Shown here in pieces: positions 1 to 64,000 of a stretch of DNA of 64,000 bases. Within the stretch, counting starts at the first letter, position 1. The number at the start of each line of letters is the position of its first letter. This DNA is from Lota lota. Its lineage: Eukaryota > Chordata > Actinopteri > Gadiformes > Lotidae. The translations under genes and the position numbers were made by a program. A model generated the notes under the pieces. That model made no database searches. It was given only the letters and a program-made list of their open reading frames with translations, and was not told the origin of the DNA. The stretch covers positions 108,517 to 172,516 of the forward strand of contig JACYXH010000122.1 of NCBI GenBank assembly GCA_026745465.1, in the 5' to 3' direction.

Positions 1-1037
1 AGCTTCTTCATCTCCATGTTCATTGTCTCCTCCAGCTGATCCAGGGATCTCCTCAAGGTCCCTATGTATGACGGAGGATGAACCTCCACCGTTGTCCAGT
101 CCCTGGTGGGTGGAGGATTCTTCAGGGATCTGAAGGTTTAGAGGAAGTGGAGGTGGTCTTCAGTGTGTGAGAGCTGCTTCACCTCTAAGCTTCTATTGGT
201 CAGATCTTCTATATCCTGCTCCAGCTCTTTGATGAGGTCTTCAACTTGTTTCTCTGTGGATTTCAATCGCTCTTTAACCGTTTGGTTGAAATCATCCTGC
301 CACTTTTCAATGTAGCGCATCAGAGCAGTGAAGACCTGCATACCATCAGCTATCTCTCTGTCTGCGTCTGCTTTGCTGCGGTCCGCTGTGTCTGCAATCT
401 CCTGAATCTTTAGTTTTCTCTCCTGGATCATCTGCCGAACTTCAGACTCTATCTTCACCAGCTGGGCCGTCTTCACTTCATATTCCTCCTTTAGAGGTAC
501 AACAGGATGGGACTTGTGGTCCGTCACTGTGCAGAACTGACACACACACACCTGTTCAGTCTGGCAGAAGAGCTCCAGAAGTCGGTCGTGTTTCTTACAC
601 ATCCTGTCTTCCAGACGGTCCATAGCCTCGACCAGCCGATGTTTCTTCAGGACTGCGACTCTCTGATGTGGCTCCAGGTGGGTTTGGCAGTAAGAGATAA
701 AACACACTAGGCAGGACTTCACAGCCTTCAGCTGGGTCCCAGTACAGATGTCACAGGGAACTTCTGCTGGTTCAACACAAGGCTGCTCTTTGACTCGTAC
801 AGAACTTCTAAACTGATCAATCATCTCTGAAAAGAGATTATTGACCTGTAAATCAGGTCTTGTCTGGAACAGCTTGTTGCAAACAGGACATTTATACTGG
901 ACTTGGTCATCCCAGAAGTTTGTAATACAGGTTCTGCAGAAGTAGTGTCCACATGGTGTGGAGACTGGGCTGTTGAACACATCCAGACAGATGGAACATG
1001 AAAAGTTCTCTTCAGACCAGGAAGTAGCAGAGGCCAT
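1..1037 (-). pseudogene. TRIM copy 1, RING/B-box/coiled-coil, nonsense codon, runs off the window
   Basis: The start at 1037 (MASATSW) is followed by a C3HC4 RING with key residues CSIC, CGHYFC, CRTC and CPVC, a B-box 1-like Cys cluster (CDIC...CLVC), a B-box 2 (CKKH...CVCQFC...DHKSH) and a coiled coil. The reading frame stops at 138-140, where the sister copies read Gln in HLHFLQTF; here CAG is TAA, two substitutions. In-frame homology continues past the stop to base 1 (NPPPTRDWTTVEV and MEMKKL), so the B30.2 end lies outside the window. An acceptor CTAG lies just before GA-ATG and a GTGAGT donor at 1142-1147 marks a 108-nt 5' UTR intron, as in copy 4. RING TRIMs are usually E3 ubiquitin ligases; this copy could make only a truncated protein. 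A pseudogene is likeliest. Confidence 0.8.
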
Positions 1038-11435: not shown

Positions 11436-13061
11436 CTAATCTGTTTGATTGACAGGTGAGATGATCAGGGGGGCAGAGTTTATACCTTTATAATTACAGA
11501 GACCTGGACTGAGGAATGGATAGAGAGGCTCAGTAAAGGTGCAGCCAGTAGCAGAGTAGATATGAACCCTGGCTTCCACATCATAGAAGGAGACCAGACC
11601 CTCATCATAATCAACAAACACCCCCACCTTCTGGAGCTCAGCTCTCAGAGGGAGACGGACATAAGGGTTACCTCTAAATACCAACCGTTCCTTGTTGAAT
11701 AAAATAGTCCAGTAACCATTCTTAGGGATGGGTTTGATCGCACTGCTTCTGTTGATGGACTCTCTGACCACTCCTAAACACCATTCAGTCTTGTCTTTAA
11801 CCTGGACCTCAAAGTAAAATCTCCCTGAGGAGAAGCTCTGCCTCGTGAGAACAAATAATTTCTCTGTAAAACTGTTAGGGTTGTCTGGGAGTATCTTCCT
11901 GACACCTCCATGATGTACTTGTTTCCCATCCTCAGACAGGATGAGACTGGAATGAGCTGTATCAGGATCCAGAGTCACATCTACTTCATACTGCTGGACC
12001 ATCTTTAGTTCAGCAGCATCACACAGCTTCTTCATCTCCATGTTCAGTGTCTCCTCCAGCTGATCCAGGGATCCCCTCAAGGTCCCTACGTATGACGGAG
12101 GACGGACCTCCACCGTTGTCCAGTCCCTGGTGGGTGGAGGATTCTTCAGGGATCTGAAGGTCTGGAGGAAGTGGAGGTGGTCTTCAGTCTGTGAGAGCTG
12201 CTTCACCTCTGTGCTTCTATTGGTCAGATCTTCTATTTCCTGCTCCAGCTCTTTGAAGAGGTCTTCAGCCTCTTTCTCTGTGGATTTCAGTCTCTCTTTA
12301 ACCGTTTGGTTGAACTCATCCTGCCACTTTTCAATGTAGCGCATCAGAGCAGTGAAGACCTGCACACCATCAGCTATCTCTCTGTCTGCGTCTTTGTTGC
12401 TCAATTCTACGGTGTCTTTGATCTCCTTAATCTTTAGTTTTCTCTCCTGGATCTTCTGCTGAATTTCAGACTCTATCTTCCCCAGCTGGGCCGTCTTCAC
12501 TTCATATTCCTCCTTTAGAGACACAACAGGATGGGACTTGTGGTCTGTCTCTGTGCAGAACTGACACACACACACCTGTTCAGTCTGGCAGAAGAGCTCC
12601 AGAAGTCGGTCGTGTTTCTTACACATCCTGTCTTCCAGACGGTCCATAGGCTCGACCAGCCGATGTCTCTTCAGGCCTGCGACTCTCTGATGTGGCTCCA
12701 GGTGGGTTTGGCAGTAAGAGGTAAAACACACTAGGCAGGACTTCACAGCCTTCAGCTGGGTCCCAGTACAGACATCACAGGGAACTTCTGCTGGTTCAAC
12801 ACACGGCTGCTCTGTGACTCGTACAGACCTTCTAAACTGATCAATCATCTCTGAAAAGAGAGTATTGACCTGTAAATCAGGTCTTGTCTGGAACAGTTTG
12901 TTACAAACAGGACATTTGTACTGGACTTGGCCATCCCAGAACCTTGTAATACAGGTTCTGCAGAAGTTGTGTCCACATGGTGTGGTGACTGGGCTGTTGA
13001 ACACATCCAGGCAGATGGGACATGAAAAGTTATCCTCAGACCAGGAAGAATTGGACGCCAT
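11436..13061 (-). CDS. TRIM copy 2: intact RING, B-box, coiled-coil, PRY-SPRY protein (fish TRIM family)
   Basis: A single coding exon of 541 residues, the only undamaged full-length copy here. The RING (residues 14-53) has all C3HC4 ligands: C14, C17, C29, H31, C34, C37, C50, C53. B-box 1-like cysteines lie at about 95-125 and B-box 2 (CKKH...DHKSH) at about 146-186, followed by a Glu/Lys-rich coiled coil to about 300. The PRY-SPRY (about 355-541) begins EVDVTLDPDTAHSSLILSED and has WTILFN and VGVFVDYDEGLVSFYDV. The family acts as E3 ubiquitin ligases, with B30.2 binding the target; fish members (finTRIM and TRIM16/25-like) are mostly antiviral or immune. ATG lies two bases after an acceptor (TTTCTAG), so a 5' UTR exon is spliced on (intron 13064-13837). 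The exact orthologue is not known to me. Confidence 0.93.
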   Translation of the reverse strand: MASNSSWSEDNFSCPICLDVFNSPVTTPCGHNFCRTCITRFWDGQVQYKCPVCNKLFQTRPDLQVNTLFSEMIDQFRRSVRVTEQPCVEPAEVPCDVCTGTQLKAVKSCLVCFTSYCQTHLEPHQRVAGLKRHRLVEPMDRLEDRMCKKHDRLLELFCQTEQVCVCQFCTETDHKSHPVVSLKEEYEVKTAQLGKIESEIQQKIQERKLKIKEIKDTVELSNKDADREIADGVQVFTALMRYIEKWQDEFNQTVKERLKSTEKEAEDLFKELEQEIEDLTNRSTEVKQLSQTEDHLHFLQTFRSLKNPPPTRDWTTVEVRPPSYVGTLRGSLDQLEETLNMEMKKLCDAAELKMVQQYEVDVTLDPDTAHSSLILSEDGKQVHHGGVRKILPDNPNSFTEKLFVLTRQSFSSGRFYFEVQVKDKTEWCLGVVRESINRSSAIKPIPKNGYWTILFNKERLVFRGNPYVRLPLRAELQKVGVFVDYDEGLVSFYDVEARVHIYSATGCTFTEPLYPFLSPGLCNYKGINSAPLIISPVNQTD

Positions 13062-13995: not shown

Positions 13996-14100
13996 CAGAG
14001 CTCCAGGCTCGGGCCCGCCCCCTCGGTAGCCTTCTGACACGCTCACAGACACAGCCGCGCGCAGACACAGCCGCGGCGCGCACACACACACACACACACA

Positions 14101-14240
14101 CACAGCGCTGCTTGCGCCTCTACTTCCTACTCTGACTGAATCAGCTGTCTGCTGCTCTCATAGCTCTGCTGCGCGTGTGTGCACTGTGTGCGTGCACGCC
14201 GGGGCGCGTTCCTGCAGCGAGCGTAGCGGCAATAAACACA
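14101..14240 (+). repeat. Dispersed repeat of about 140 bp, copy a
   Basis: It begins GCGCTGCTTGCGCCTCTAC, contains GACTGAATC and GCTGCTCTCATAGCTCTGCT, and ends GCGGCAATAAACAC. It directly follows a (CA)n run (14081-14102). Other copies lie at 15761-15897, 26551-26597, 42905-43043 (inverted) and 62501-62565. I do not recognise the family. Confidence 0.75.
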
Positions 14241-14699
14241 TCTGTTGTATTTCATGTAGGCTACGCCGTCAAGGCTTCGCCTTCTGGGCTTGTGCCTTGG
14301 GCCGCTGAGTGTGTCTTTGGCTCCGTGCTTTTATATGCTTTACTGCGGAGCCCTAACTGCGGACCAATAGAAACGGGCAGGGATTACGCACACACCTACT
14401 CGAGCTGCAGAGAAGGAATCTCCGTCGGCAGGCCGACTCGCTGCTGCATGTTCACTGCTCCACTAAACGCTGCTGCATTTGTTCTACACGCTGAAACGCG
14501 TCAATCACATGCAGTTCACCTTTAGATTCAGTCAAACGCTTCTACATCCTGTTTAGTGATGCGGGTTTTGTCATGACGGGATGTGCAAAGCGTGTTTATA
14601 ATGTCTCCAGAGTTCAAATCTATAAAAGCTATGAGAATTGGAGACACACTTGTTGTCACTACACTGCGTCTTGCATTTCAACACCATTAAGTTGGTGTT

Positions 14700-15452: not shown

Positions 15453-15760
15453 AGGAACCATAATGAGTTCTAAGAAGGCAGAACCACTTCGCTAGCCGTG
15501 GGGGTGGTCGGAATGTTCCATCACCAGAGAGCCTTTTCCACAGTGATGGTAACTGTCATCCATCGTATTGCTTCTAGTTATATACGAGGACACATCGACT
15601 CATACAAAGGGCTCAAATACGAGTGTTCATGCAAACCAGACGCTAATCTGTGTTTAAAGTTGGGAGCCACAGGTTGTTATGAAACATCCGTGGTTAGGGG
15701 AGGACAGGAAGTCTGGTTCAGGAAACTAAAGTAAAAAATAATGTTTTACACACACACACG
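15250..15760. repeat. Duplicated non-coding block (with 25945-26490)
   Basis: Collinear high identity to 25945-26490 (for example TGTTATGAAACATCCGTGG in both). The open frame 15498-15734 is matched in the duplicate but shows no domain, so I do not call it a gene. Confidence 0.75.
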
Positions 15761-15897
15761 CAGCGCTGCTTGCGCCTCTACTTCCTACTCTGACTGAATC
15801 CGCTGTCTGCTGCTCTCATAGCTCTGCTGCTCGTGTGTGCACTGTGCGCGTGCACGCCGGGGCGCGTTCCTGCAGCGAGCGTAGCGGCAATAAACAG
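15761..15897 (+). repeat. Dispersed repeat of about 140 bp, copy b
   Basis: Same family as 14101-14240, again preceded by a short CA run and ending GCGGCAATAAAC. Confidence 0.75.
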
Positions 15898-23935: not shown

Positions 23936-24325
23936 GTTTTTATTGAAATAAGAAAGTGTACAAACATTTGATTGTTGTCATTCATATTTCAGAAGTATAA
24001 ACTAATACACTCGTTTTGTTTAAGAAACTAAAGATTTTTAACATGCACCTGCAAATGTTTCGAAATTTCATATTGTTAAATGTATAATAAACATTCAGCA
24101 GTAATCCGATATTGATCAATATAGTATATGTAATCGAATCACGTGTCATGGGTTATATTTTACAATAGTCAGGGTTCTTTTCCAAATGAATTCCTTCTTG
24201 TCAAATGAAAGCAGTACAACATTAATGCAGTTCTCTCAGATCTCACGTAGTAGATATTATAATTCATGAAACAACATTAGTGGTTTTGGTCGTTTGATTA
24301 TTTTATTATCAAACAAAAGGTCCTA

Positions 24326-24520
24326 GTCTGTTTGATTGACAGGTGAGATGGTCAGGGGGGCAGAGTTTTTACCTTCATAATTATAGAGACATGGACCGAG
24401 GAATGGATAGAGAAGCTCACTAAAGGTGCAGCCAGTAGCAGAGTAGATATGAACCCTGGCTTCCACATCATAGATGTCATCATTTCTCTCTGGATTGCTG
24501 TCTCTCTTTAACCATTCCTA
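24326..24520 (-). pseudogene. TRIM remnant with the gene body deleted
   Basis: The end of a TRIM SPRY (matching copy 2 from its 3' end to FYDVEARVHIYSATG) is joined through about 40 unrelated bases to the bases just before a TRIM start codon (ACCATTCCTAG). About 1.4 kb of coding sequence is gone, while the 5' intron block and 3' flank remain. Confidence 0.8.
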
Positions 24521-24824
24521 GAAGAAAATTATGAAAATCAAATTACAATTTTAACTATATGTTATATGTTGTATACATGTAATAATGTGTTAATTTTCCT
24601 AAATGTGTTGTTATTTCAAGCAAAGCTCTTGAGCCAACAGGTCGGTAAAACAGCACTGAACATAAAACACACTGGTCACTATTGACTCTCACACCGCTAC
24701 CACCGTGAATGAAGGAGCCAACTGCACTCACACACAGGGAAGATTCTAACGCCACTACTACTCTGATCCATACTGCTTATCCAGCCGCTACTTTAACGCT
24801 ACTCTTATCGCTTCTTTTAGAAGA

Positions 24825-25190
24825 AGACAAGTTAAGAACAAGACATCTTTCTTCAACTGCAACACCGTACACAGGTTTTGAATATATAACTATTATTGAC
24901 TCTATACTATTGAGAGAATTGAAATGTGGATACAAACAAAATGAAATCAATAAACAAGAGAAAAGAAAATACAGTGGCATAGAGCAACAGGGATGGGGTC
25001 TGCATGCAGCTGGGCCTCAAAAAGGCCTGAAGCCTTATCTGAACAGTTCTTCTGAAGGAAGATGTGCTTTTTTTCCTTTCCTGGTAAACATTCTGGATGA
25101 ACGATCACCAGGAAGTAAATGTATTTCCTTTGTTCCTCAAATACCGCTTGCAGCGCCGGGTACGTCGGAGCTCATCGATACTTAGATTAG
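24825..25190. repeat. Segmental-duplication block (with 13132 and 35452)
   Basis: Same order of sequence as in the 5' UTR introns of TRIM copies 2 and 3. The long plus-strand frame here (24709-25185) is not conserved and is not called. Confidence 0.8.
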
Positions 25191-26803: not shown

Positions 26804-29470
26804 CCCCCACTTGCTCTAGTACTGTACAAGTCGTATTCAACCTAACTTTATATGTAACATCCTTAGAACTTAGTTATACATCTCACAAATGTCAGTTTAT
26901 ATTCTAAACATATAACCCGGTAATTTTTCATTTTTACATTACTCAAATAACATGTATTTTACACTTGTGAGTGAGTCACTATCACTTGCAGCGATTGTCC
27001 AGTTCCTTCCTGACTGTTTCATGCCGTACAGTTACATATATATAAAAAAAAACGTATTTGACCGTATAGACCCACCTGCCCCCCCCACTGCATTTTTACC
27101 CTCTGGCAGTGTGGTCAATGTGAATGTATCATTTTCCCTGAGGGAATCCATCTCCTCCTTCATAGCAGTAGCCCAAATCTCTGATTTTGGTGAAATCATT
27201 GCTTCTTTGAAGGTTTGTGGTGCATTGCACATTACTCTGTAGCAGTAGTCAACACTATGTGGAATCTGGTCATCACACTTCACTTTACACTCATAGTATT
27301 TTAAGTACTGGGGTTTCTTCCTCGCTCTGTCTGGATAGCGTGGACTCTGACTATCTGAAGTCTCGATTTGCACATCTTGTGTTTCTGCAAAATTTTGATC
27401 TGCCATCTTGGCTTTTGGCATGAGGGATTCAAATCTCTTCCCATGAAGATCATCACTCATTTCCAAATATGTCTGAGTTTCGCGTTCGACTATACCTTTT
27501 GTTAAGAACTTGACTAATCTTTTTTTATAGAACTTTTCCAGTATCTGGGTAGTACACTAGGTATGCTGGACTATTTTTATCATACCCGACAAAAATACCC
27601 TTTTCACATCTTGAGTCTAACGTTTTCATGTTCTGTCTGTATGCATAGCAAACAGATCCAATTTCTTTCATCTTTGAAAGATCAGGCTTTCTCCCAGTAA
27701 ATATGTAGTATGGAGTCTGTCCTACACGCTTATGTAACACGAATTACTGCAGCAGTCATTACAGCATATGTCCACAAGTTCTTTGGTAGGTTGCTCTCAA
27801 GTAGCATGCATCTTGCCATTTCAAACAGTGTTCTCCAATTTCTCTCAGCAGTCCCATTTTGATGGGGTGAGTAAGGGGCTGAAGTTTCAAGTCTTCTGGC
27901 ATTCTTACTGAGCAGTGACTGGAACTCTTTTGCTGTGAACTCTGTGCCATTATCTGACCTGACACACTTTATTTTCCCATAAGGGGCCACATCAGCAATA
28001 AACTTCTCAGTAGCTTTTACAGTATCACTCTTTGCTTTTAGGAAATACACAACAACGACCCCTGAATAATCATCCGTAAATGCTAGAGTGTATCTGAACC
28101 CATCTTTCGCCTCTGGCTCAATAGGGCCAGTCAAATCAGTGTGCACAAGCTCAAGAGCCACTTTTGCCTTTTCATCAGGCTCTCTGTTTCTGCTCTGAAC
28201 AAATTTTCCCTGTGTGCAGATTTCACAGTTGAAGGTAGATTTGTCAATCTTACCTGTGATTTTCATTCCCTCTGTCACATTTTCTAACGTTGACACATCC
28301 TCAAAATTACAGTGGCCAAGAATTCTGTGCCATGTGTGAATATCATAGCACCCATATGACATCCATCATCATTTTCATCACTTACAGTGTTAAGATAGTA
28401 CAGTCTATCGTACTCCTTGATGTCAAAAGTGGTACCGTTCTTGTGGATGAGCTTGTTACACCCCTGTCGAAAGTTGACTGAAGCTCCGTTAGCTGTCGCT
28501 GCTTTAACAGAGAAAATGTCCTGTGGAAACGACGGCACGTACAGCGCCTTCGTCAGCGTTGTTTTCCCCCGACGACCCGTGTTGTCTCTCAGGTAAACCT
28601 CCGCTGCACCTCTACTCTCCGCGACACCATTCATTCTTGTTCCGTCAGCCAGCTCCATGGAATGTGTTTCCGGTTTGAAGGTCTCGTCAAACTCCTTAAA
28701 CTTCTCGATGTCTGTGACTATATGTGGCGTTGCTCCCGTATCAACCATCAGCCCTTTCTGTTTCAGTCCACGAACCTGATAGTCACTTATTCTGAATGCA
28801 AATGTGTGGCCTTCAGCATCTGTTGCTTGTTTCACATTGTCTCTTATTTTTTGTCTGCAATTTGCGTCAGTATGAGTGGAGCTCTTGCAAAAACTACACC
28901 ACTGTCTCCGTTCTCTGCGCTCTCCAGTAACGGTACATTCCCGGGCCTTGTGCCCTTTCTGGCCACAGTTGAAGCAGGTTATCTCGGTCCCTTTATATCT
29001 TCCTCTTGGCCAGCTAACTTTAATGTTACTTGCCTTCATCACGTTGTCGTCAGTGGAAATGGCGCTAAACTTCTCGGTGCTTTCATAGATCCTCAACTTG
29101 GTTTTGAACTTGCCAAAAGTTGTCGGCTCGTCACTCTGCGTTATGTGGATGGCAAATGGCTTAAATGATTCGGGCAAACCTTTCAGAATCATTGCAATCA
29201 ACAGCCCGTCACTTAAAGTCTCTTTAGCATTCCTCAGTGCTGTAATAGCCGTCTCAGACCGGAGAATATAGTCCGTAACACTTTCGTCAGAGGCTTTCCG
29301 AAGAGAAGTTAGCTCAGTGTAGAGGCTAATCACACGTGGCTTCCCTTTACCTGCATAATGTTCCCTCAATATCTTCAACGCTTTTCTCCCATCATCTGCT
29401 GCTTCTCTCATCATCAGGGAAAGACATGGCTGAGTATTTGCAAGGCATTCTGGCAGGGTTTTGGTTTAAA
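26804..29470 (-). mobile_element. Degenerate Ty1/copia retrotransposon interior
   Basis: Read on the minus strand: Gag (from about 29450, N-terminus missing) with zinc knuckle CFNCGQKGHKAREC, then protease LMVDTGATPHIV, both in the frame 28284-29414. After a frameshift comes the integrase (27730-28362) with an HHCC-type zinc region, HTDLTGP, RSDNGTEF and PYSPHQNGTAERN, continued at 27525-27740. The start of reverse transcriptase (27032-27466) has EEMDSLRENDTF. A further RT piece, LYGMKQSGRNW, follows at about 26980-27030; the catalytic YVDD region and RNase H are deleted. The element is dead: frameshifts, an internal deletion and a lost 5' end. Confidence 0.88.
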
Positions 29471-33819: not shown

Positions 33820-35218
33820 CTAGTCTGTTTGATTGACAGATGAGATGATCAGGGGGCTAGAGTTTATACCTGCATACTTATAGAGACCTGGGCAGAGGAA
33901 TGGATAGAGAGGCTCAGTAAAGGTGCAGCCAGTAGCAGAGTAGATATGAACCCTGGCTTCCACATCATAGAAGGAGACCAGACCCTCATCATAATCAACA
34001 AACACCCCCACCTTCTGGAGCTTAGCTCTCAGAGGGAGACGGACAGCAGGGTTATCTTTAAAGACCAACCCATCGTTATCTAAGTAAAGAGTCCAGGATG
34101 AGACGGGGATGAGCTGTATCAGGATCCAAAGTCAAATCTACTTCATACTGCTGGACCCTCTTCAGTTCAGCATCATCACGCAGCTTCTTCATCTCCATGT
34201 TCAGTGTCTCCTCCAGCTGATCCAGGGATCTCCTCAAGGTCCCTACGTATGACGGAGGACGGACCTCCACCGTTGTCCAGTCCCTGGTGGGTGGAGGATT
34301 CTTCAGGCATCTGAAGGTCTGGAGGAAGTGGAGGTGGTCTTCAGTGTGTGAGAGCTGATTCACCTCTGAGCTTCTATTGGTCAGATCTCCTATTTCCTGC
34401 TCCAGCTCTTTGATGAGGTCTTCAGCTTGTTTCTCTGTGGATTTCAGTCTCTCTTTAACCGTTTGGTTGAACTCATCCTGCCACTTTTCAATAGAGCGCT
34501 TCAGAGCAGTGAGGACCTGCACACCATCAGCTATCTCTCTGTCTGCGTCTTTGTTGCTCAATTCTACTGTGTCTTTGATCTCCATAATCTTTAGTTTTCT
34601 CTCCTGGATCATCTGCTGAACTTCCGACTCCATCTTCCCCAGCTGGGCCGTCTTCACTTCATATTCCTCCTTTAGAGGTACAACAGGATGGGACTTGTGG
34701 TCTGTCTCTGTGCAGAACTGACACACACACACCTGTTCAGTCTGGCAGAAGAGCTCCAGAAGTCGGTCATGTTTCTTACACATCCTGTCTTCCAGACGGT
34801 CCATAGGCTCGACCAGCAGATGTTTCTTCAGGACTGCGACTCTCTGATGTGGCTCCAGGTGGGTTTGGCAGAAAGAGGTAAAACACACTAGGCAGGACTT
34901 CACAGCCTTCAGCTGGGTCCCAGTACAGACATCACAGGGAACTTCTGCTGGTTCAACACAAGGCTGCTCTTTGACTCGTACATACCTTCTAAACTGATCA
35001 ACCATCTCTGATATGTAGGTATTGACCTGTACATCAGGTCTTGTCTGGAACAGCTTGTTACAAACAGGACATTTGTACTGGACTTGGCCATCCCAGTGTG
35101 TTGTTATACAGGTTCTGCAGAAGTTGTGTCCACATAGTGTGGTGACTGGGCTGTTGAACACATCCAGACAGATGGGACATGAAAAGATATCCTCAGACCA
35201 GGAAGAATTGGACGCCAT
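33820..35218 (-). pseudogene. TRIM copy 3, SPRY frameshifted by a deletion
   Basis: The first 380 codons (34076-35218) encode a RING with intact C3HC4, B-boxes, coiled coil and the first PRY strand (LTLDPDTAHPRLIL). A deletion then removes 227 nt relative to copy 2 (equivalent to 11713-11939) and shifts the frame, ending after LDSLLR. The last 82 codons of SPRY survive out of frame at 33820-34068. The break carries a 3-bp microhomology (CAG). A truncated RING/B-box/coiled-coil protein could still be made; a pseudogene is likelier. The 5' UTR intron (35221-36251) and the promoter match copy 2. Confidence 0.88.
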
Positions 35219-40236: not shown

Positions 40237-42347
40237 CTACAACCGACTCAGAGACACTGAGTCACCATCCCCCCATACCCTAAACCCAGGGAGTAGGTCC
40301 TCCTGGGTGAAGGTGGACTGGAAGGTGTGGATGTGTGTCAGTGTGTCTGAGGACCCTCCTACATCTGGGGACACTCTGTAGAAGGACAGAGTGCCAGCAG
40401 GCCGGTCCAGATACACTCCTACTCTGTTAGAGCCAGCGGGGGGGAGATCTATGTCTGTTTCTATACCGTTGTACCGGGCATAGTAATGAGCATCATGACA
40501 ATCAAGACTCCAGGACTTGTTGTTCTCTCCAAGCCTGCTGTTATCACCCCCTCCTCTCCTTGTGATTCCTCTGTAAGTCACTCCTATCTCAACACGTCCT
40601 TCCCACTCTACCTCCCAGTAACAGCAGCCAGTCAGAGCCTCTCTACACAACACCTGGTACCAGTAGTCAAATCTCCCTGGTTGATCAGGATACGACTGGT
40701 CCTCTCCAACCAGCGTCACCTTTCTGTTGTCCTCAGACAGATAGAGTTGTCTGTGGGCTGTGTTTGGGTCCAGTGTGAGTTCACAGGCATCTGACGGGAG
40801 AACAAGACATGATTAGGCTGCTAAGCCACACAGAAATGTCATTTAAATAATGTTGAAGTGATGTATATTAGTATTATTATAAACAGCATTCCACTTATAG
40901 TAATAATGATTATATTACATCCATAATAATTGTATAACACTATCATGTTTTGACTATAAAAAATACATAGTATAGTTACTTGATTATGTGTAATATAATA
41001 ATGATAGTAATGAATATTAAAAACATTATAATAATAATATATTGATACAAACACATTCGTAATAATTATTTACAAATGTTATAGGATAACATAAAAGGCA
41101 TAACAACAACGATTACAATAATAGTAAAAATAGAATACACACACAATAACTATGGTACAATCATTAGATTATTAATAATATAATGAATATTATTCAATTG
41201 TGTGTAGTAATAATATACAACTAATTATTATTAATAATCAATTATAAAATTAAAATAATACATCTTAGATTTTACACTCACACTTCTTTACACCTGGTTT
41301 CAGGTCAGGCAGCTTCTTCATCTCCATGTTCAGTGTCTCCTCCAGCTGATCCAGGGATCTCCTCAAGGTCCCTACGTGTGACGGAGGACGGACCTCCACC
41401 GTTGTCCAGTCCCTGGTGGGTGGAGGATTCTTCAGGGATCTGAAGGTCTGGAGGAAGAGGAGGTGGTCTTCAGTCTGTGAGAGCTGCTTCACCTCTGAAC
41501 TTCTATTGGTCAGATCTTCTATTTCCTGCTCCAGCTCTTTGATGAGGTCTTCAGCCTCTTTCTCTGTGGATTTCAGTTTCTCTTTAACCGTTTGGTTGAA
41601 CTCATCCCGGCACTTTTCCATGCAGTTCATCAGAGCAGTGAAGACCTGCACACCATCAGCTATCTCTCTGTCTGCGTCTTTCTTGCTAATTTCTACTGTG
41701 TCTTTGATCTCCTTAATCTTTAGTTTTCTCTCCTGGATCATATGCGGAACTTCAGACTCTATCTTCCCCAGCTGGGCCGTCTTCACTTCACATTCCTCTT
41801 TTAGAGGTACAACAGGATGGGACTTGTGGTCTGTCTCTTTGCAGAACTGACACACACACACCTGTTCAGTCTGGCAGAAGAGCTCCAGAAGTCGGTCGTG
41901 TTTCTTACACATCCTGTCTTCCAGACGGTCCATAGGCTCGACCAGCAGATGTTTCTTCAGGACTGCGACTCTCTGATGTGGCTCCAGGTGGGTTTGGCAG
42001 TAAGACATAAAACACACTAGGCAGGACTTCACAGCCTTCAGCTGGGTCCCAGTACAGACGTCACAGGGAAATTCTCCTGGTTCAACACAAGGCTGCTCTT
42101 TGACTCGCACAGAACTTCTAAACTGATCAATCATCTCTGAAAAGAGAGTATTGACCTGTAAATCAGGTCTTGTCTGGAACAGAGTGTTGCAAACAGGACA
42201 TTTGTACTGGACTTGGTCATCCCAGAACGTTGTAATACAGGTTCTACAGAAGTTGTGTCCACATGGTGTGGTGACTGGGCTGCTGAACACATCCAGACAG
42301 ATGGGACATGAAAGGTTCTCTTCAGACCAGGAAGTAGCAGAGGCCAT
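40237..42347 (-). CDS. TRIM copy 4: RING/B-box/coiled-coil joined to an NLR-type B30.2 exon
   Basis: Two coding exons, 41282-42347 and 40237-40790, with an AT-rich 491-nt intron (donor T/GTGAGT, acceptor CCCGTCAG, phase 1), giving about 539 residues. Exon 1 has an intact RING (CPIC, CGHNFC, CRTC, CPVC), B-boxes and coiled coil nearly identical to copy 2. At MEMKKL the sequence departs to PDLKPGVKK and splices to a B30.2 starting ACELTLDPNTAHRQLYLSED, with YWEVEWEG and VGVYLDRPAGTLSFY. That B30.2 type is the one seen in many fish NLR and TRIM proteins and differs from that of copy 2. The start follows a CTAG acceptor; the 5' UTR intron is 42350-42447. Probably a functional E3 ligase with a different target range. 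Confidence 0.9.
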
Positions 42348-42447
42348 TCCTAGACACAGACGACAAGGTTAATGTATTGAGCATTTCCATAATTTTTCTA
42401 ATTCCAAAAAGGGAAGAGAGGTTCTAAAGTTGTGTTGTTTTACTCAC

Positions 42448-42660: not shown

Positions 42661-42904
42661 CCACTCTGACTGTGGGCGTTCCCGCACCGTGAAAGCTCCT
42701 TCAAATGCGTTGATGTGTGTTCTCCTCTTCTCTGTGGAGTTAGAAGAGAGCCGGTGCAAACCGAGAGACACTGTGGTGATGGAGTGGTTATTTGCGACTG
42801 TAACTGGGATTCATTGACGTTGATTGACCCTTGTTTCCGGGGATTCCCTGCATACTATTTATCCAGCCCCGATCCAATGTTCAACAAGAAAATAAATTAA
42901 AGAT

Positions 42905-43043
42905 GTGTTTATTGCCGCTACGCTCGCTGCAGGAACTCGCCCCGGCGTGCACGCGCACAGTGCACACACGAGCAGCAGAGCTATGAGAGCAGCAGACAGC
43001 GGATTCAGTCAGAGTAGCAGCAAGTAGAGGCGCAAGCAGCGCT
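42905..43043 (-). repeat. Dispersed 140-bp repeat, copy d (inverted)
   Basis: The reverse complement of 14101-14240, again next to a TG/CA run (43051-43070). Confidence 0.75.
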
Positions 43044-43059
43044 ATGTTTGTGCGTGTGT

Positions 43060-43260
43060 GTGTGTGTGTGGGGGGGGGGGGGGTTGTAGTAGGTTATGTT
43101 TCTATAATTAGACAGGGTTATTTTCTTCCTTCATTTCTCTTCACTGAGTCATCTGGTTGGGTTATCATGTTTCTTCCTCTTGTAACACCCTTTACAGGCA
43201 GGTATTCAGAAAGGCAGACACACACACACAAACTATATTAATAAGCAATGTTAGAGACTG
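43060..43260. repeat. Unit repeated at 50690 and 52210
   Basis: ACAGGGTTATTTTCTTCC, TCATCTGGTTGGGTT and ACCCTTTACAGGCAGGTATTC followed by (CA)n. The three units, with their CTC-rich neighbours, are diverged tandem or segmental copies. Confidence 0.7.
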
Positions 43261-45391: not shown

Positions 45392-45393
<2 letters not shown>

Positions 45394-48030
45394 ATAACCG
45401 ACACAGAGACACCATGGAACCAGAATCATATAACATAAAGGCAGGGTAGAGGTCCTGAGTGAATGTGGACTGGAAGGTGTGGATGTGTGTCAGTGTGTCT
45501 GAGGACCCTCCTACATCTAGGGACACTTCGTAGAAGGACAGAATGCCAGCAGGCCGGTCCAGATACACTCCTACTCTTTGAGAGACAGGGAGGGGTGGGG
45601 GAGGTAATCCTGTTTTACTACCGTTGTACCAGGCAGAGTAAACATCATCATCATCATCATCATCATCACAACAATGAAGACACCAGGACTTGTTGTTCCT
45701 ACCAAGCTCACCGTCATCACTCCTTCCTCTCCTTGTGATTCCTCTGTATGTCACTCCTATATCCACATCTCCTTCCCACTCTACCTCCCAGTAACAGCGG
45801 CCAGTCAGAGCCTCTCTACACAACACCTGTCTATGGTAGTTAAATCTCTCTGGGTGATCAGGATACCACTGATTGCATCCAAGCTGTGTCACCTCTCTGT
45901 TGTCCTCAGACAGAGAGAGATGTCTGTGGGCTGTGTTTGGGTCCAGTGTGAGTTCACAGGCATCTGAAGGGAGAACAAGACATGATTAGGCTGCTAAGCC
46001 ACACAGAAATGTCATTTAAATAATGTGGAAGTGATGTATATTAGCATTATTATAAACAGCATTCCGCTTATAGTAATAATGGCTATATTACATCCATAAT
46101 AATTGTATAACACTATCATGTTTTGACTATAAAAAATACATTGTATAGTTACGTGATTATGTGTAATATAATAATGATAGTAATGAAAATTAAAAAAATT
46201 ATAATAATAATAATATATTAATGCAAACACATTCGTAATAATTATTTACAAACGTTATAGCATAACAAAAATGGCATAATAACAACAACGATTACAATAA
46301 TAGTAAAAATAGAATACACACACAATAACTATGGTACAATCATTACGTTATTAATAATGATGGTACCATCATTATTATTCAATTGTGTGTAGTATTAATA
46401 TACTGTACTAATAATTAGTACTAATCAATTATAAAATTAAAATAATACATGTTAGATTTTACACTCACACTTCTTTACACCTGGTTTCAGGTCAGGCAGC
46501 TTCTTCATCTCCATGTTCAGTATCTCCTCCAGCTGATCCAGGGATCTCCTCAAGGTCTCTACGTATGACGGAGGACGGACCTCCACCATCGTCCAGTCCC
46601 TGGTGGGTGGAGGATTCTTCAGGCATCTGAAGGTCTGGAGGAAGTGGAGGTGGTCTTCAGTGTGTGAGAGCTGCTTCACCTCTGAGCTTCTATTGGTCAG
46701 ATCTATTATTTCCTGCTCCAGCTCTTTGATGAGGTCTGGTCAGAAATCAACAACAATTCCTTTACTCCAGGCCAGGGAGAATCTTGGATAACCCCGTATT
46801 CTGGGTGGTTAGAGGAGGTTGTCTCACACAGTGATTAGTAGAGGACAAACGAGGAGAGCAGTGTTAGGAGCACGTTGTACATCTCCACACACAAGAGGAA
46901 GTAAGAGTTGCAAGTAATCAGATGGAAGTAACTTGGGGTTCCTGAGAGAAGGACGGATCACCAAAACTTATTTTTCGAAGATGTAAATTTAGAATTTTGT
47001 CAGAGATCCACACACTTCACTGGGGAGATATATATTTCAGCAGAACTACTTTCCCACCCAGAGTTCCTTTAGAACATTTCTCTACATCTTCAAGAAGTTC
47101 ATGTCTACCAGGAGATCGACAGTATGTAGGTGTTGACCTTTGGGTCCTGGTCCATCAGAAATGTGAGGGAGAGAAGTGGTAGCAGGGCTTGCAGTTGTAT
47201 TGAAGCTGCTTCACCATGAGCTTCTATTGGTCAGATCCCTCTTTCTCTGTGGATTTCAGTTTCTCATTAACCGTTTGGTTGAAATCATCCCGGCACTTTT
47301 CCATGCAGTTCATCAGAGTAGTGAAGACCTGCCCACCATCAGCTATCTCTCTGTCTGCATCTTTCTTGCTCAATTGTACTGTGTCTTTGATCTCCTTAAT
47401 CTTTAGTTTTCTCTCCTGGATCATCTGCGGAACTTCAGTCTCTATCTTGCCCAGCTGGGCCGTCTTCACTTCATATTCCTCCTTTAGAGGTACAACATGA
47501 TGGGACCTGTGGTCACCCTCTGTGCAGAACTGACACACACACACCTGTTCAGTCTGGCAGAAGAGCTCCAGTAGTTGATTGTGTTTCTTACACATCCTGT
47601 CTTCCAGACGGTCCATAGGCTCGACCAGCCGATGTTTCTTCAGGCCTGCGACTCTCTGATGTGGCTCCAGGTGGGTTTGGCAGTAAGAGGTAAAACACAC
47701 TAGGCAGGACTCCACAGCCTTCAGCTGGGTCCCAGTACAGATGTCACAGGGAACTTCTGCTGGTTCAACACAAGGCTGCTCTTTGACTCGTACAGAACTT
47801 CTAAACTGATCAATCATCTCTGAAAAGAGAGTATTGACCACTAAATCAGGTCTTGTCTGGAACAGCTTGTTGCAAACAGGACATTTGTACAGGACTTGGT
47901 CATCCCAGAACCTTGTAATACAGGTTCTGCAGAAGTTGTGTCCACATGGTGTGGTGACTGGGCTGTTGAACACATCCAGACAGATGGAACAGGAAAAGTC
48001 TTCTTCATAACAGGAAGTAGCAGAGGCCAT
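45392..48030 (-). pseudogene. TRIM copy 5, same architecture as copy 4, broken in the coiled coil
   Basis: 47224-48030 encodes a RING (CSIC, CGHNFC, CRTC, CPVC), B-boxes and half of the coiled coil, then ends KSTEKEGSDQ-stop. About 500 bp of unrelated sequence (46740-47235) follow. Homology resumes at 46739 with KELEQEI to KKLPDLKPGVKK (exon edge 46469, donor GTGAGT). After an intron much like that of copy 4 comes the B30.2 exon 45392-45963 (ACELTLDPNTAHRHLSLSED). That exon is open and holds a run of eight Asp from a (CAT)n repeat at about 45645-45668. The insert also repeats, near 47205, the bases for DLTNRSS, so the break is a rearrangement, not a clean insertion. The 5' UTR intron is 48033-48243. 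Confidence 0.85.
46740..47235. other. Foreign segment inside TRIM copy 5
   Basis: No similarity to the other copies except the last 35 bp (GAGCTTCTATTGGTCAGATC), which duplicate the coiled-coil region. No transposon ends are seen. Confidence 0.6.
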
Positions 48031-50910: not shown

Positions 50911-51509
50911 TAATGTGATATAAGAGAACGTTTAAAAAAAGATAGAAAATAGGCAGTAGTCACACAATGGGCTGCAATTTAACAGTAAATGTAAAGACTG
51001 TTGCCATGATACTAAACAGTAAATATATCTTATATATAGAAATCGTGTATTTGCTAGGTAAACCTACTTCTAACTCAGCACAGCACAGCAAGGTGTGTGA
51101 ACTGTCATCACTTGTTGTTGTAATTTAGTTTGATACAGAACAGCATATTTACAGTATGGTGCTGTCAATGAGGTCCACTTGGGCTGTACTCACAACCCAG
51201 GTCCCATCACAAGTCATGCTGAACATTGTTGGAAGGGTTTCTCATGTTTATTATCAGTACAATTATGAGTTCTGCCAAAATAGATCAAAACTCTTATTGT
51301 AAGAAAATGCTTTCAGTAGATTGTTAGTCTGGACAATGGATGTCATGAACGGTTATCTTTTATCAAATCAATGAACAGAATCAGAAAGGTAACAAAGAAA
51401 ATCTTTATTAGTTACTGTTAAATAATTCAGCAGACTGTAAAAACAAAAATCTGTTCTTAGGCTTGTTGTAAAAAGGAAATCAGTCTGGATCTCGCCTCTG
51501 ATTTTCTCA

Positions 51510-51995
51510 ACTTCCATCTCTACCTCCTCCTCTACCTCCTCCTCTACCGTCTCCTCCTCTACAGTCTCCTCCTCTACCTTCTCCTCTACCTCCTTCTCTA
51601 CCTGCTCCTCTACCCTCTCCTCTACCACCTCCTCATCTACCTTCTCCTCCAGTACCTCCTCCTCCTCCTCTACCTCCTCCTCCTCTACCTCCTCCTCTAC
51701 CTCCTCCTCTACCACCTCCTTTACCTCCTCTTCCTCTTCCTCCTCCTCCTCCTCCTCCTCTACCTCCTCCTTTACCTCCTCTTCCACTACCTCCTCCTCC
51801 TCCTCTACCTCCTCCTCCTCTACCTTCTCCTCTACCTCCTTCTCTACCTGCTCCTCTACCTGCTCCTCTACCTCCTCCTCTACCTCCTCATCTACCACCT
51901 CCTCATCTACCACCTCCTCATCTACCTCCTCCTCCTCCTCTACCTCTTCCTCCTCCTGCTCCTCTACCTCCTCCTCCCCCACCTCCTCCTCATTT
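51510..51995. repeat. Long pyrimidine tract (CTC/TAC)n
   Basis: Nearly 490 bp of C/T with TAC units. The minus strand is open as a Glu/Val repeat (51368-51982), which I take as a by-product of the repeat. Confidence 0.85.
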
Positions 51996-52204
51996 ACAGT
52001 CGGAAGTCATGTGAATACTTGTTGACATAGAAGTGTACAAATGCAATTGCCATTCATTAATCAGTAGCATACATACAAATGGACGGTATATTTTATTATG
52101 TTACCCAAATGGGAAATGTTCTACATGACTGCAACTGTTAATGATTTTATAGCATTAAAGGTTATATGAACTAGTAAGTGAAAACAATCAATGAACATTT
52201 AGTA

Positions 52205-62566: not shown

Positions 62567-64000
62567 TGGTTTGGTGTTGGTATGGTTTTGGGGTGGGGTT
62601 AAGGTGGTGTTGGTGTTGGGGTGGTGTTAGGGTGCTGTTTGGGATGGGGTGGTGTTGGGGTGGTGTGGGGGTGTTGTTGGTGTTGGGGTGAGGGTGATGT
62701 TGAAGTGGTTTTGGTGTTGGGGTGGTGTTTTGGTGGAGTTAGGGTGTTGTTGGGGTGATGTTGGTGTTAGGGTGTGGGTGGTGTTGAAGTGGTGTTGATG
62801 TTGGGGTGGTGTTGGGTGGCGTTGGGGTGGTGTTAGTGTTGGGGTGGTGAGGTGTTGGGGTAGTTTTGGGGTGGTGTTGGTGTTGGGGTGGTGTTTATGT
62901 TGGGATGGTGATGGGGTTGGGGTGGTGTTGGGGTGATGTATGTGTTTGTGTGGTGTGGTGTAGGGGTGGTGTTGGTGTTGGGGTGGTGTTGGTGTTTGTG
63001 TTGGGGTGGTGTTGGTGTTGGGTTGGTGTTGGGGTGGTGTTGGTGTTTGTGTTTGGTTGGGGTTTGGGGTGTGTTGGTGTTAAGGTGGTGTTGGTGTTGG
63101 GGTGGTGTTGGGGTGGTGTTGGTGTTGGGGTGGTGTTACGTTGGGGCAGTGTTGGGGTGGTGTTGGTGTTAGGGTGGTGTTGGGGTGGTGTTGGTGTTGG
63201 GGTGGTGGTATGGTGGTGTTGGGGAGGTGTTGGGGTGGTGTTACGTTGGGGTAGTGTTGGGGTGGTGTTGGTGTTAGGGTGGTGTTCGGGTGGTGTTGGT
63301 GTGGTGTTACGTTGGGGTAGTGTTGGGGTGGTGTTGGTGTTAGGGTGGTGTTGGGGTGGAGGTGAGGTGGTGTTGGTGTTAGGGTGGTGTCGTTGTTGGG
63401 GTGGTGTGGTGTTGGGGTGGTGTTGGTGTTTGTGTTGGGGTGGTGTTGGTGTTGGGTTGGTGTTGGGTTGGTGTTGGTGTTTATGTTTGGTTGGGGTTTG
63501 GGGTGTGTTGGTGTTAAGGTGGTGTTGGTGTTGGTGTTGGGTTGGTGTTGGGGTGGAGTAGGGTGGTGTTGGGGTGGTGTTGGGGTGGTGTTACGTTGGG
63601 GTAGTGTTGGGATGGTGTTGGTGTTAGGGTGGTGTCGGGGTGGTGTTGGTGTTGGGGTGGTGGTATGGTGGTGTTGGGGTGGTGTTGGTGTTGGGGTGGT
63701 GTTGGGGTGGTGTTGGGGTTTGGGGTCTGTTGGTGTTAGGGTGGTGTTGGGGTGGAGTTGAGGTGGTGTTGGTTTTAGGGTGGTGTCGGTGTTGGGGTGG
63801 TGTGGTGTTGGGGTGGTGTTGGGGTTGGTGGTGTTGGGGTTGGGGTGGTGTTGGGGTGGAGTTTGGTTGGTGTTGTGGTTGGGGTGGTGTTGGGGTGGGG
63901 TTGGGGTTGGGGTGGTTTTGGGGTGGTGTTGGTGTTGGGGTGGACTTGGGGTGGTGTTGGTGTTGGGGTGGTGTTACGTTGGGGTAGTGTTGGGGTGGTG
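62567..64000. repeat. G/T-rich minisatellite, runs off the window
   Basis: More than 1.4 kb of GTTGGGGTGGTGTTGGTGTT-like units, almost free of C on the plus strand. Higher-order units such as GTTACGTTGGGGTAGTG recur. Long frames through it encode only Gly, Val, Trp, Cys and Leu and are not genes. Confidence 0.95.

Follow-up and report, generated by a model that had tools for sequence, protein, structure and literature searches.

One ligase exon pool appears to serve two classes of B30.2 domain in a large TRIM family of Lota lota

Results

TRIM copies in the window

The window analysed in this work is a stretch of 64,000 nucleotides that forms part of contig C122 of Lota lota; the genome searched amounted to 575 Mb. 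As described in the initial annotation, the window carries five copies of a TRIM front (the RING, B-box and coiled-coil, or RBCC, part), all of them on the minus strand, and we found besides the relic of a further copy. The copies come in two forms. Copy 2 is fused: its RBCC part (12024..13061), about 95% identical to that of copy 4, continues within the same exon, as had been proposed, into a B30.2 domain of the pyrin/butyrophilin/TRIM21 type (11436..12023). Copy 1 (1..1037), whose complete B30.2 lies beyond the window (L069), and copy 3 (33820..35218), whose B30.2 is without bases 91-340 of the 591 compared, are also fused, and the relic of a sixth copy (24323..25114, minus strand) is likewise of the fused type, what is left of it being a copy-2-type 5' flank, 31 bases of the coiled coil and 152 bases from the end of a fused-type B30.2.

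Copy 4 is split. Its RBCC exon has an acceptor AG at 42351-42350, an ATG at 42347 and its final base at 41282; the segment from the acceptor to the end of the motif MEMKKL (41310..42354), which holds the RING, B-boxes and coiled coil, is followed by a linker, PDLKPGVKK(Y), that makes up the remainder of the exon (41282..41309). A 491-bp intron (40791..41281) reads GTGAGT...CCCGTCAG, with the donor from 41281 and the acceptor AG at 40792-40791, and the B30.2 exon, of the NLR/TRIM16/stonustoxin type, occupies 40790 to 40237 including the stop codon at 40239-40237. The predicted splice 41282/40790 keeps the frame (KK-Y-ACELTLDPNTAH), and in the unspliced sequence the frame would end 360 amino acids past the ATG (367 from stop to stop). 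Both copy 2 and the predicted spliced product of copy 4 showed the Pfam domains RING, zf-B_box, TRIM_CC, PRY and SPRY, in this order and above the curated cut-offs, and thus the composition of an RBCC-type TRIM protein with B30.2. The predicted model of the copy 4 B30.2 (mean pLDDT 76.5, pTM 0.79) consists of strands, without helices.

Copy 5 has the form of copy 4, in agreement with the initial annotation: its intron and B30.2 exon (45392..46467) are 92% identical to the intron of copy 4 and 72% identical to its B30.2 at the amino acid level, respectively. The front of copy 5 (46468..48030) is broken in codon 265 by 500 bp (47237-46738) that include a partial repeat of coding positions 820-870 and add an in-frame stop, and copy 5 is therefore unlikely to be an intact gene.

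Copies 2 and 4 are alike in a single segment

The reported near-identity of copies 2 and 4 from the RING to MEMKKL was confirmed. The two copies share a single block, which begins 7 bases before the ATG and ends at base 1038 (the last MEMKKL codon), with 94.8% identity over 1045 bp. In the region compared, which extended upstream of the ATG for 3 kb and downstream of it for 5 kb, no further blastn match at 1e-4 was found. Since the likeness is confined to this island, the 5' flanks as well as the B30.2 domains differ between the two copies. The B30.2 of copy 4 had been called unrelated-looking; it is indeed very different from that of copy 2, but at 31-32% identity in a local protein alignment the two are distant homologues rather than unrelated sequences. 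Among solved structures, the closest to the copy 4 B30.2 were stonustoxin and TRIM16, and those closest to the copy 2 B30.2 were pyrin, the butyrophilins and TRIM21; the B30.2 of TRIM39 was absent from the best 60 of the 93 structure matches of copy 2.

The front itself was closest to TRIM25 (residues 10-306, 1.1e-36), and among the RING-only PDB entries TRIM25 (3e-19) preceded TRIM39 (3.9e-11). One B-box (zf-B_box, 144-182) scored above its cut-off and a second, weak ANCHR-like B-box (95-133) under its own. The front therefore has the two B-boxes and the TRIM16/TRIM25-like character of the finTRIMs. The other finTRIM trait, a B30.2 closest to those of NLRs, was found in copy 4 only, whose B30.2 is 80% identical in amino acids to that of the FISNA-linked gene L090; the copy 2 B30.2 is about 27% identical to the latter and thus lacks this trait. 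The exon plan of zebrafish finTRIMs (an RBB exon followed by exons of 96, 234, 154, 60 and about 545 bp) is not that of copy 4, which has a single exon of 1066 coding bases, linker included, and a B30.2 exon of 554.

The downstream half of copy 4 resembles an NLR-linked gene

A FISNA search of the genome gave 404 candidates, 150 of which were scored. None of the scored matches lay on C122, and the B30.2 of copy 4 is preceded by an RBCC exon instead of the FISNA-NACHT exon of an NLR-B30.2 gene. L090, which lies 4-5 kb downstream of a FISNA match on the same strand, was the only FISNA-linked gene read through its linker exon. Its 3' end comprises a small exon of about 47 bases (if its acceptor was read rightly) ending in LKPALKK, a GTAAGT donor, an intron and a B30.2 exon. 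This exon together with the end of the intron is 90.7% identical to copy 4 over 593 bp of DNA (80% in protein), and the linker and donor of copy 4 match the end of the small exon at 90% over 30 bases. The description of copy 4 as passing through a linker and an intron, which is of the GT-AG type, into a separate B30.2 exon of the NLR kind was therefore accurate. Its explanation by exon shuffling held in part: copy 4 matches the NLR-linked gene in its B30.2 exon, in the end of its intron, in its donor and in the end of its linker, yet the point at which copies 2 and 4 part is within an exon rather than an intron, and this is therefore not classical intron-mediated exon shuffling.

Other split genes show the same resemblance. 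L021, L023, L068 and a mosaic gene described below are 87-88% identical to L090 over 109 bases reaching into the intron, and L011 matches it in a mid-intron stretch and in the B30.2 exon (about 92%). A genome-wide count that allowed up to 3 mismatches gave 387 occurrences of the NLR small exon with its donor, against 0 in the reversed control, and FISNA, small exon and PRY follow one another in order on one strand of C533, C335, C526, C456 and C357, as read from listed coordinates only. Four FISNA-linked B30.2 exons were read, three of them assigned by a FISNA match 6.2-7.2 kb upstream on the same strand. A single clade of NLR-type B30.2 was disfavoured by the AU test, both for the four FISNA-linked sequences (p 0.027) and for a set of seven (p 0.011) in which L006, L007 and L008 were taken as NLR-type by the likeness of their introns to that of L090, judged by eye. 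One FISNA-linked exon, L093, a putative NLR exon by its distance to a FISNA match, is 98.2% identical over 549 bp to L066, a TRIM cassette by its intron, with 290 identical bases in a row (4 of 500 permutations); this was the only FISNA-linked/TRIM pair that passed the tract test.

Both forms occur throughout the genome

Among 114 scored relatives of the copy 4 front (1878 candidates), 51 were split, 58 fused, 3 had a 481-aa frame (two of these, L032 and L033, are the mosaic gene described below) and 2 were unclear, the form being scored by linker coverage and open-frame length and the tally made by eye. Split and fused relatives did not differ in rank (Mann-Whitney p 0.91). With the copy 2 front as query, mostly long-frame genes came out on top, yet at least 9 of the 117 matches were known split genes. 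The fused junction was present 628 times at up to 3 mismatches and the type A split junction, which represents one linker type only, 27 times (each 0 in the reversed control); within 2 mismatches the copy 4 junction recurs at 27 places, copies 4 and 5 among them. The GTRAGT donor was found in all 27 split loci (26 by pattern, L021 by reading) and AG in 25 of the 26 acceptors located; in the stretch examined for L017 no acceptor was found. The introns of the split TRIMs compared fall into three types that are alike only near their ends.

Two split loci depart from this layout. L065 has CAA in place of the CAG acceptor and probably cannot be spliced normally to its B30.2 exon, and at C742:200775-206394 (L066 and L067) the intron of a split TRIM is apparently broken by about 4.8 kb, the two halves overlapping by 5 query bases.

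The RBCC exon is mixed between forms

Fronts outside the window were chosen by their own resemblance, or that of their junction, to copy 4 (114 scored of 1878 candidates, and 40 of 2077 in another search), and this sampling bias towards copy-4-like fronts and junctions is the main weakness of the analysis that follows. The 79 front records, which include a part of the 51 split matches, reduced to 59 distinct fronts after identical ones were merged; copy 5, L049, L054, L058 and L067 had been dropped beforehand for an aligned front of less than 951 bases.

The 59 fronts (32 fused, 27 split, with the mosaic L033 scored as fused here and in the full tree) differ by about 6% on average, and their diversity was 0.051 within the fused form, 0.061 within the split form and 0.061 between the two, with an Fst of 0.07 and zero fixed differences. 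Differentiation did not rise towards the junction (Fst 0.02-0.12 per 100-column window, and 0.02 in the last 39 columns). When near-copies (less than 1% apart) and the mosaic were excluded, the between-form Fst-like value of the remaining 40 fronts (20 of each form) was 0.015. On the full front tree, form changed 12 times, 6 of these changes being forced by supported branches, against 19.8-19.9 for shuffled labels (0-1 of 500 as low); form is thus clustered on this tree, which implies that near-copies keep their form. On the tree free of near-copies there were 11 changes, again with 6 forced, against 13.6-13.8 for shuffled labels (36-50 of 500 as low), so that clustering by form was no longer clear.

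Recombination left direct traces. The fused L079 and the split L041, which differ by 3.7% overall, are identical along a tract of 494 gap-free columns (a length reached in 0 of 500 permutations, in which the variable sites were shuffled), the fused L020 and copy 4, 4.5% apart overall, share an identical stretch of 316 bases (1 of 500), and none of 300 permutations was as low as the fronts in a PHI-like test. Front and downstream cassette also combine in several ways: copy 4 and L011 have fronts that are 99.5% alike (that of L011 with one in-frame stop), yet their linker, intron and B30.2 (83% in amino acids) differ; L051 and L057 carry an identical B30.2 on fronts 5.2% apart; and the fused L074 has a front within 0.5% of several fused genes and a B30.2 that is 11% different. 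In the mosaic L032/L033, on C326 and C327, which is probably one locus found twice, a fused B30.2 breaks off within the SPRY and is followed in frame by a coiled-coil end, a split linker and an NLR-type B30.2 exon.

In the loci read, then, the junctions are near-invariant within each form, and the RBCC exon has been mixed between forms by recombination. Trees and distances of the front and of the B30.2 differ, as the initial annotation expected of separate trees for the two parts. From copies 4 and 5 it had also dated the swap of B30.2 domains before a local duplication. This date we reject, as both forms are found genome-wide and fronts have been exchanged between them, so that front identity is of no use for dating the swap; it appears that the sequence of the ligase exon hardly reveals which B30.2 class comes next. 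Mixing is nonetheless incomplete, as indicated by the clustering of forms on the full tree and by a correlation between front and B30.2 distances in either form, with Mantel r values of 0.43 and 0.64 that none of 2000 permutations reached. Even the most similar fronts of opposite form are 3.2% apart, and no very recent whole-exon exchange between forms was seen among the fronts analysed.

The 5' flanks were considered as markers of form and rejected, since each type occurs with both. In a hand count of the 42 rows with real upstream sequence, which leaves out L082, the copy-4-type flank preceded 23 split genes (copy 4 included) and 10 fused ones (one being the mosaic), and the copy-2-type flank 3 fused genes (copy 2 included) and 2 split ones; L020, L061, L068 and copy 5 fitted neither type. 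The two split genes with a copy-2-type flank are L053, where the assignment comes from 79 bp adjoining the ATG, and L047, which has a 295-bp flank segment that was also found next to the relic, to copies 2 and 3 and to L034. The GC-rich part of the copy 4 flank (42901-43066) is repeated on the opposite strand, at about 94% identity, at 14081-14243 and 15748-15896.

The B30.2 domains of both forms diversify

Pairwise dN/dS with codon bootstrap, calculated after identical rows, those with internal stops and L033 had been dropped, exceeded one in the B30.2 of both forms: 1.54 (1.14-2.14; 22 of 25 rows) in split genes and 1.38 (1.01-1.88; 27 of 30 rows) in fused genes, intervals that are approximate because the pairs are not independent. 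In the fronts (20 split, 18 fused), the RING-B-box part gave 0.58 in split and 0.50 in fused genes, and the coiled coil 1.17 (0.78-1.93) and 0.71, respectively. This pattern fits a conserved ligase part joined to a diversifying recognition part, although in split genes the coiled coil, too, is near one. The hypervariable sites were not significantly concentrated in the predicted loops of the copy 4 B30.2 model (14 of 21, p 0.15).

Discussion

The interpretation that we consider probable is that a single pool of E3 exons is maintained by gene conversion and crossing-over, and that two C-terminal modules, one of them common with NLRs, diversify downstream of it. To the same degree, we think it likely that the split and fused genes represent alternative architectures within a single, very large TRIM family of fish, with the RBCC exon common to both. 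Hundreds of dispersed copies would undergo gene conversion and unequal crossing-over with one another wherever their sequences are similar, which means along the RBCC exon, and these processes would halt where the sequences are unlike, at the acceptor and at MEMKKL. With exchange restricted to this exon, the E3 module would stay common while the recognition module remains distinct and diversifies. The RING-coiled-coil part presumably acts as a dimeric E3 ligase and the B30.2 would choose the target, and the split form may draw on a B30.2 store common with NLR sensors.

How the two forms arose is a further question, and the initial annotation took copy 2 as the original and copy 4 as the swapped gene. 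A general version of this model starts from a single-exon TRIM whose own B30.2 was lost and replaced by the final cassette of an NLR gene (linker end, donor, intron and B30.2 exon), the split genes being its descendants by duplication. The match of the linker end and donor to the NLR small exon, itself found 387 times, is consistent with such a capture, as are the two of three intron types of split TRIMs that match the NLR intron and the excess of fused junctions over type A split junctions (628 against 27, each at up to 3 mismatches), although both counts are affected by the degree of conservation of the pattern searched and the 27 cover one linker type. On the other hand, under simple descent the split genes should group together on the front tree, where 12 changes were needed, and the front is of the TRIM25-like class whose fish members carry NLR-like B30.2 domains (PMC2657112), so that the direction may be the reverse. 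We regard the capture as possible, with the balance tilted against it.

In the opposite scenario, the split gene is the older, finTRIM-like one, which lost its inner introns and kept the one before the B30.2, and the fused gene is a derived chimera with a B30.2 of the btr/TRIM21 type. The match of the front to TRIM25, with one B-box match and a weak second, and the affinities of the two B30.2 domains (stonustoxin/TRIM16 for copy 4, pyrin/butyrophilin/TRIM21 for copy 2) point in this direction, as does the length of the first five exons of zebrafish finTRIMs, 1099-1138 coding bases followed by a B30.2 exon of about 545 (PMC2657112), against 1066 and 554 here. The far greater number of fused junctions and the resemblance of the linker to an NLR exon end argue against it, and we hold this origin to be unlikely, a little more so than the capture. 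Even so, the claim that copy 2 is the original was not borne out: with a front closest to TRIM25 and NLR-like B30.2 domains on zebrafish finTRIMs (PMC2657112), the TRIM21/pyrin-like B30.2 of copy 2 may be the odd partner of this front. By the zebrafish yardstick, copy 4 would have the usual finTRIM-like arrangement and copy 2 would be the mixed gene, which would reverse the initial annotation.

Two simpler accounts fare worse. Recent shared ancestry alone, with one TRIM family quickly amplified and fronts that seem mixed because all are young, would require no gene conversion and would agree with an average front difference of about 6%; it is very improbable in view of the long identical tracts in otherwise differing fronts (0-1 of 500 permutations; PHI-like 0 of 300), the 99.5%-identical fronts with different cassettes of copy 4 and L011, and the identical B30.2 on the fronts of L051 and L057, 5.2% apart. 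That assembly or haplotigs fused pieces of different genes is hardly credible, even though the family is repetitive and some contigs look haplotig-like (C326/C327, C457/C458/C459), given junctions that recur 27 times (copy 4, up to 2 mismatches) and 628 times (fused, up to 3) and the intact donors (27 of 27) and acceptors (25 of 26 found) of the split loci.

Returning to the shared exon pool, several of its components have precedents. Shuffling of B30.2 exons between finTRIMs and NLRs was published for zebrafish in 2009 (van der Aa, PMC2657112); according to that report, the finTRIMs of zebrafish are relatives of TRIM16 and TRIM25 with a B30.2 common with NLRs, the btr genes are a TRIM39-like set, and medaka finTRIMs are mostly single-exon genes (47 of 55) in which the zebrafish exon plan is mostly absent. 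The genes described here share with finTRIMs the RING, two B-boxes and coiled coil, an NLR-closest B30.2 and membership in a large, positively selected family. In contrast, that report describes front and B30.2 trees that are highly congruent and separate ftr from btr, whereas in L. lota both B30.2 classes share a single pool of fronts, with a junction within the RBCC exon. A closer parallel is the differential gene conversion of zebrafish NLR-B30.2 genes (Howe 2016, PMC4852459), where one part of the gene is likewise homogenised across groups and the other stays distinct; there the B30.2 is the common part and the NACHT part differs, whereas here the E3 effector is common and the B30.2 differs. 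Fish TRIMs with new C-termini, namely ftr06 with a chromodomain, ftr52 with a cyclophilin domain, and btr31, also illustrate (Boudinot 2011, PMC3137616) how some TRIM domains are replaced while others are kept, but they are single genes and not a genome-wide two-form system with exchange between the forms.

In the open-access literature, we recognised by title or abstract opening no earlier report in which an RBCC exon is homogenised between genes with B30.2 domains of two classes. As far as this search shows, what is new here is a TRIM family that mirrors the NLR case, with one E3 exon pool for two B30.2 classes; new too is that the pool looks to be bounded at the acceptor and at a point inside the exon, with a split junction that resembles an NLR exon end. 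The family thereby offers a natural experiment in which the E3 effector half is near-constant and is joined to either of two unlike classes of recognition half, dN/dS exceeding one in both and one class being common with NLRs, and it makes the trading of recognition domains across pathways by fish immune families testable. It also carries a warning, as RBCC identity is unfit for dating or classifying these TRIM genes.

More tentatively, and on balance doubtfully, the family could be a combinatorial immune system in which an E3 exon under continual homogenisation is passed around between two libraries of B30.2 domains and between two types of 5' flank, one library being common with NLR sensors. 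If this were so, one recognition surface would serve both TRIM ubiquitination and NLR alarm, and new specificities would spread between the two classes.

The window holds other open frames besides those of the TRIM copies. Long low-complexity stretches, open in several frames, are present at 51368-52030 and 62627-63973, and the open frames at 27032-29465 on the minus strand resemble, by their motifs, what we take to be a gag-pol element of the Ty1/copia type.
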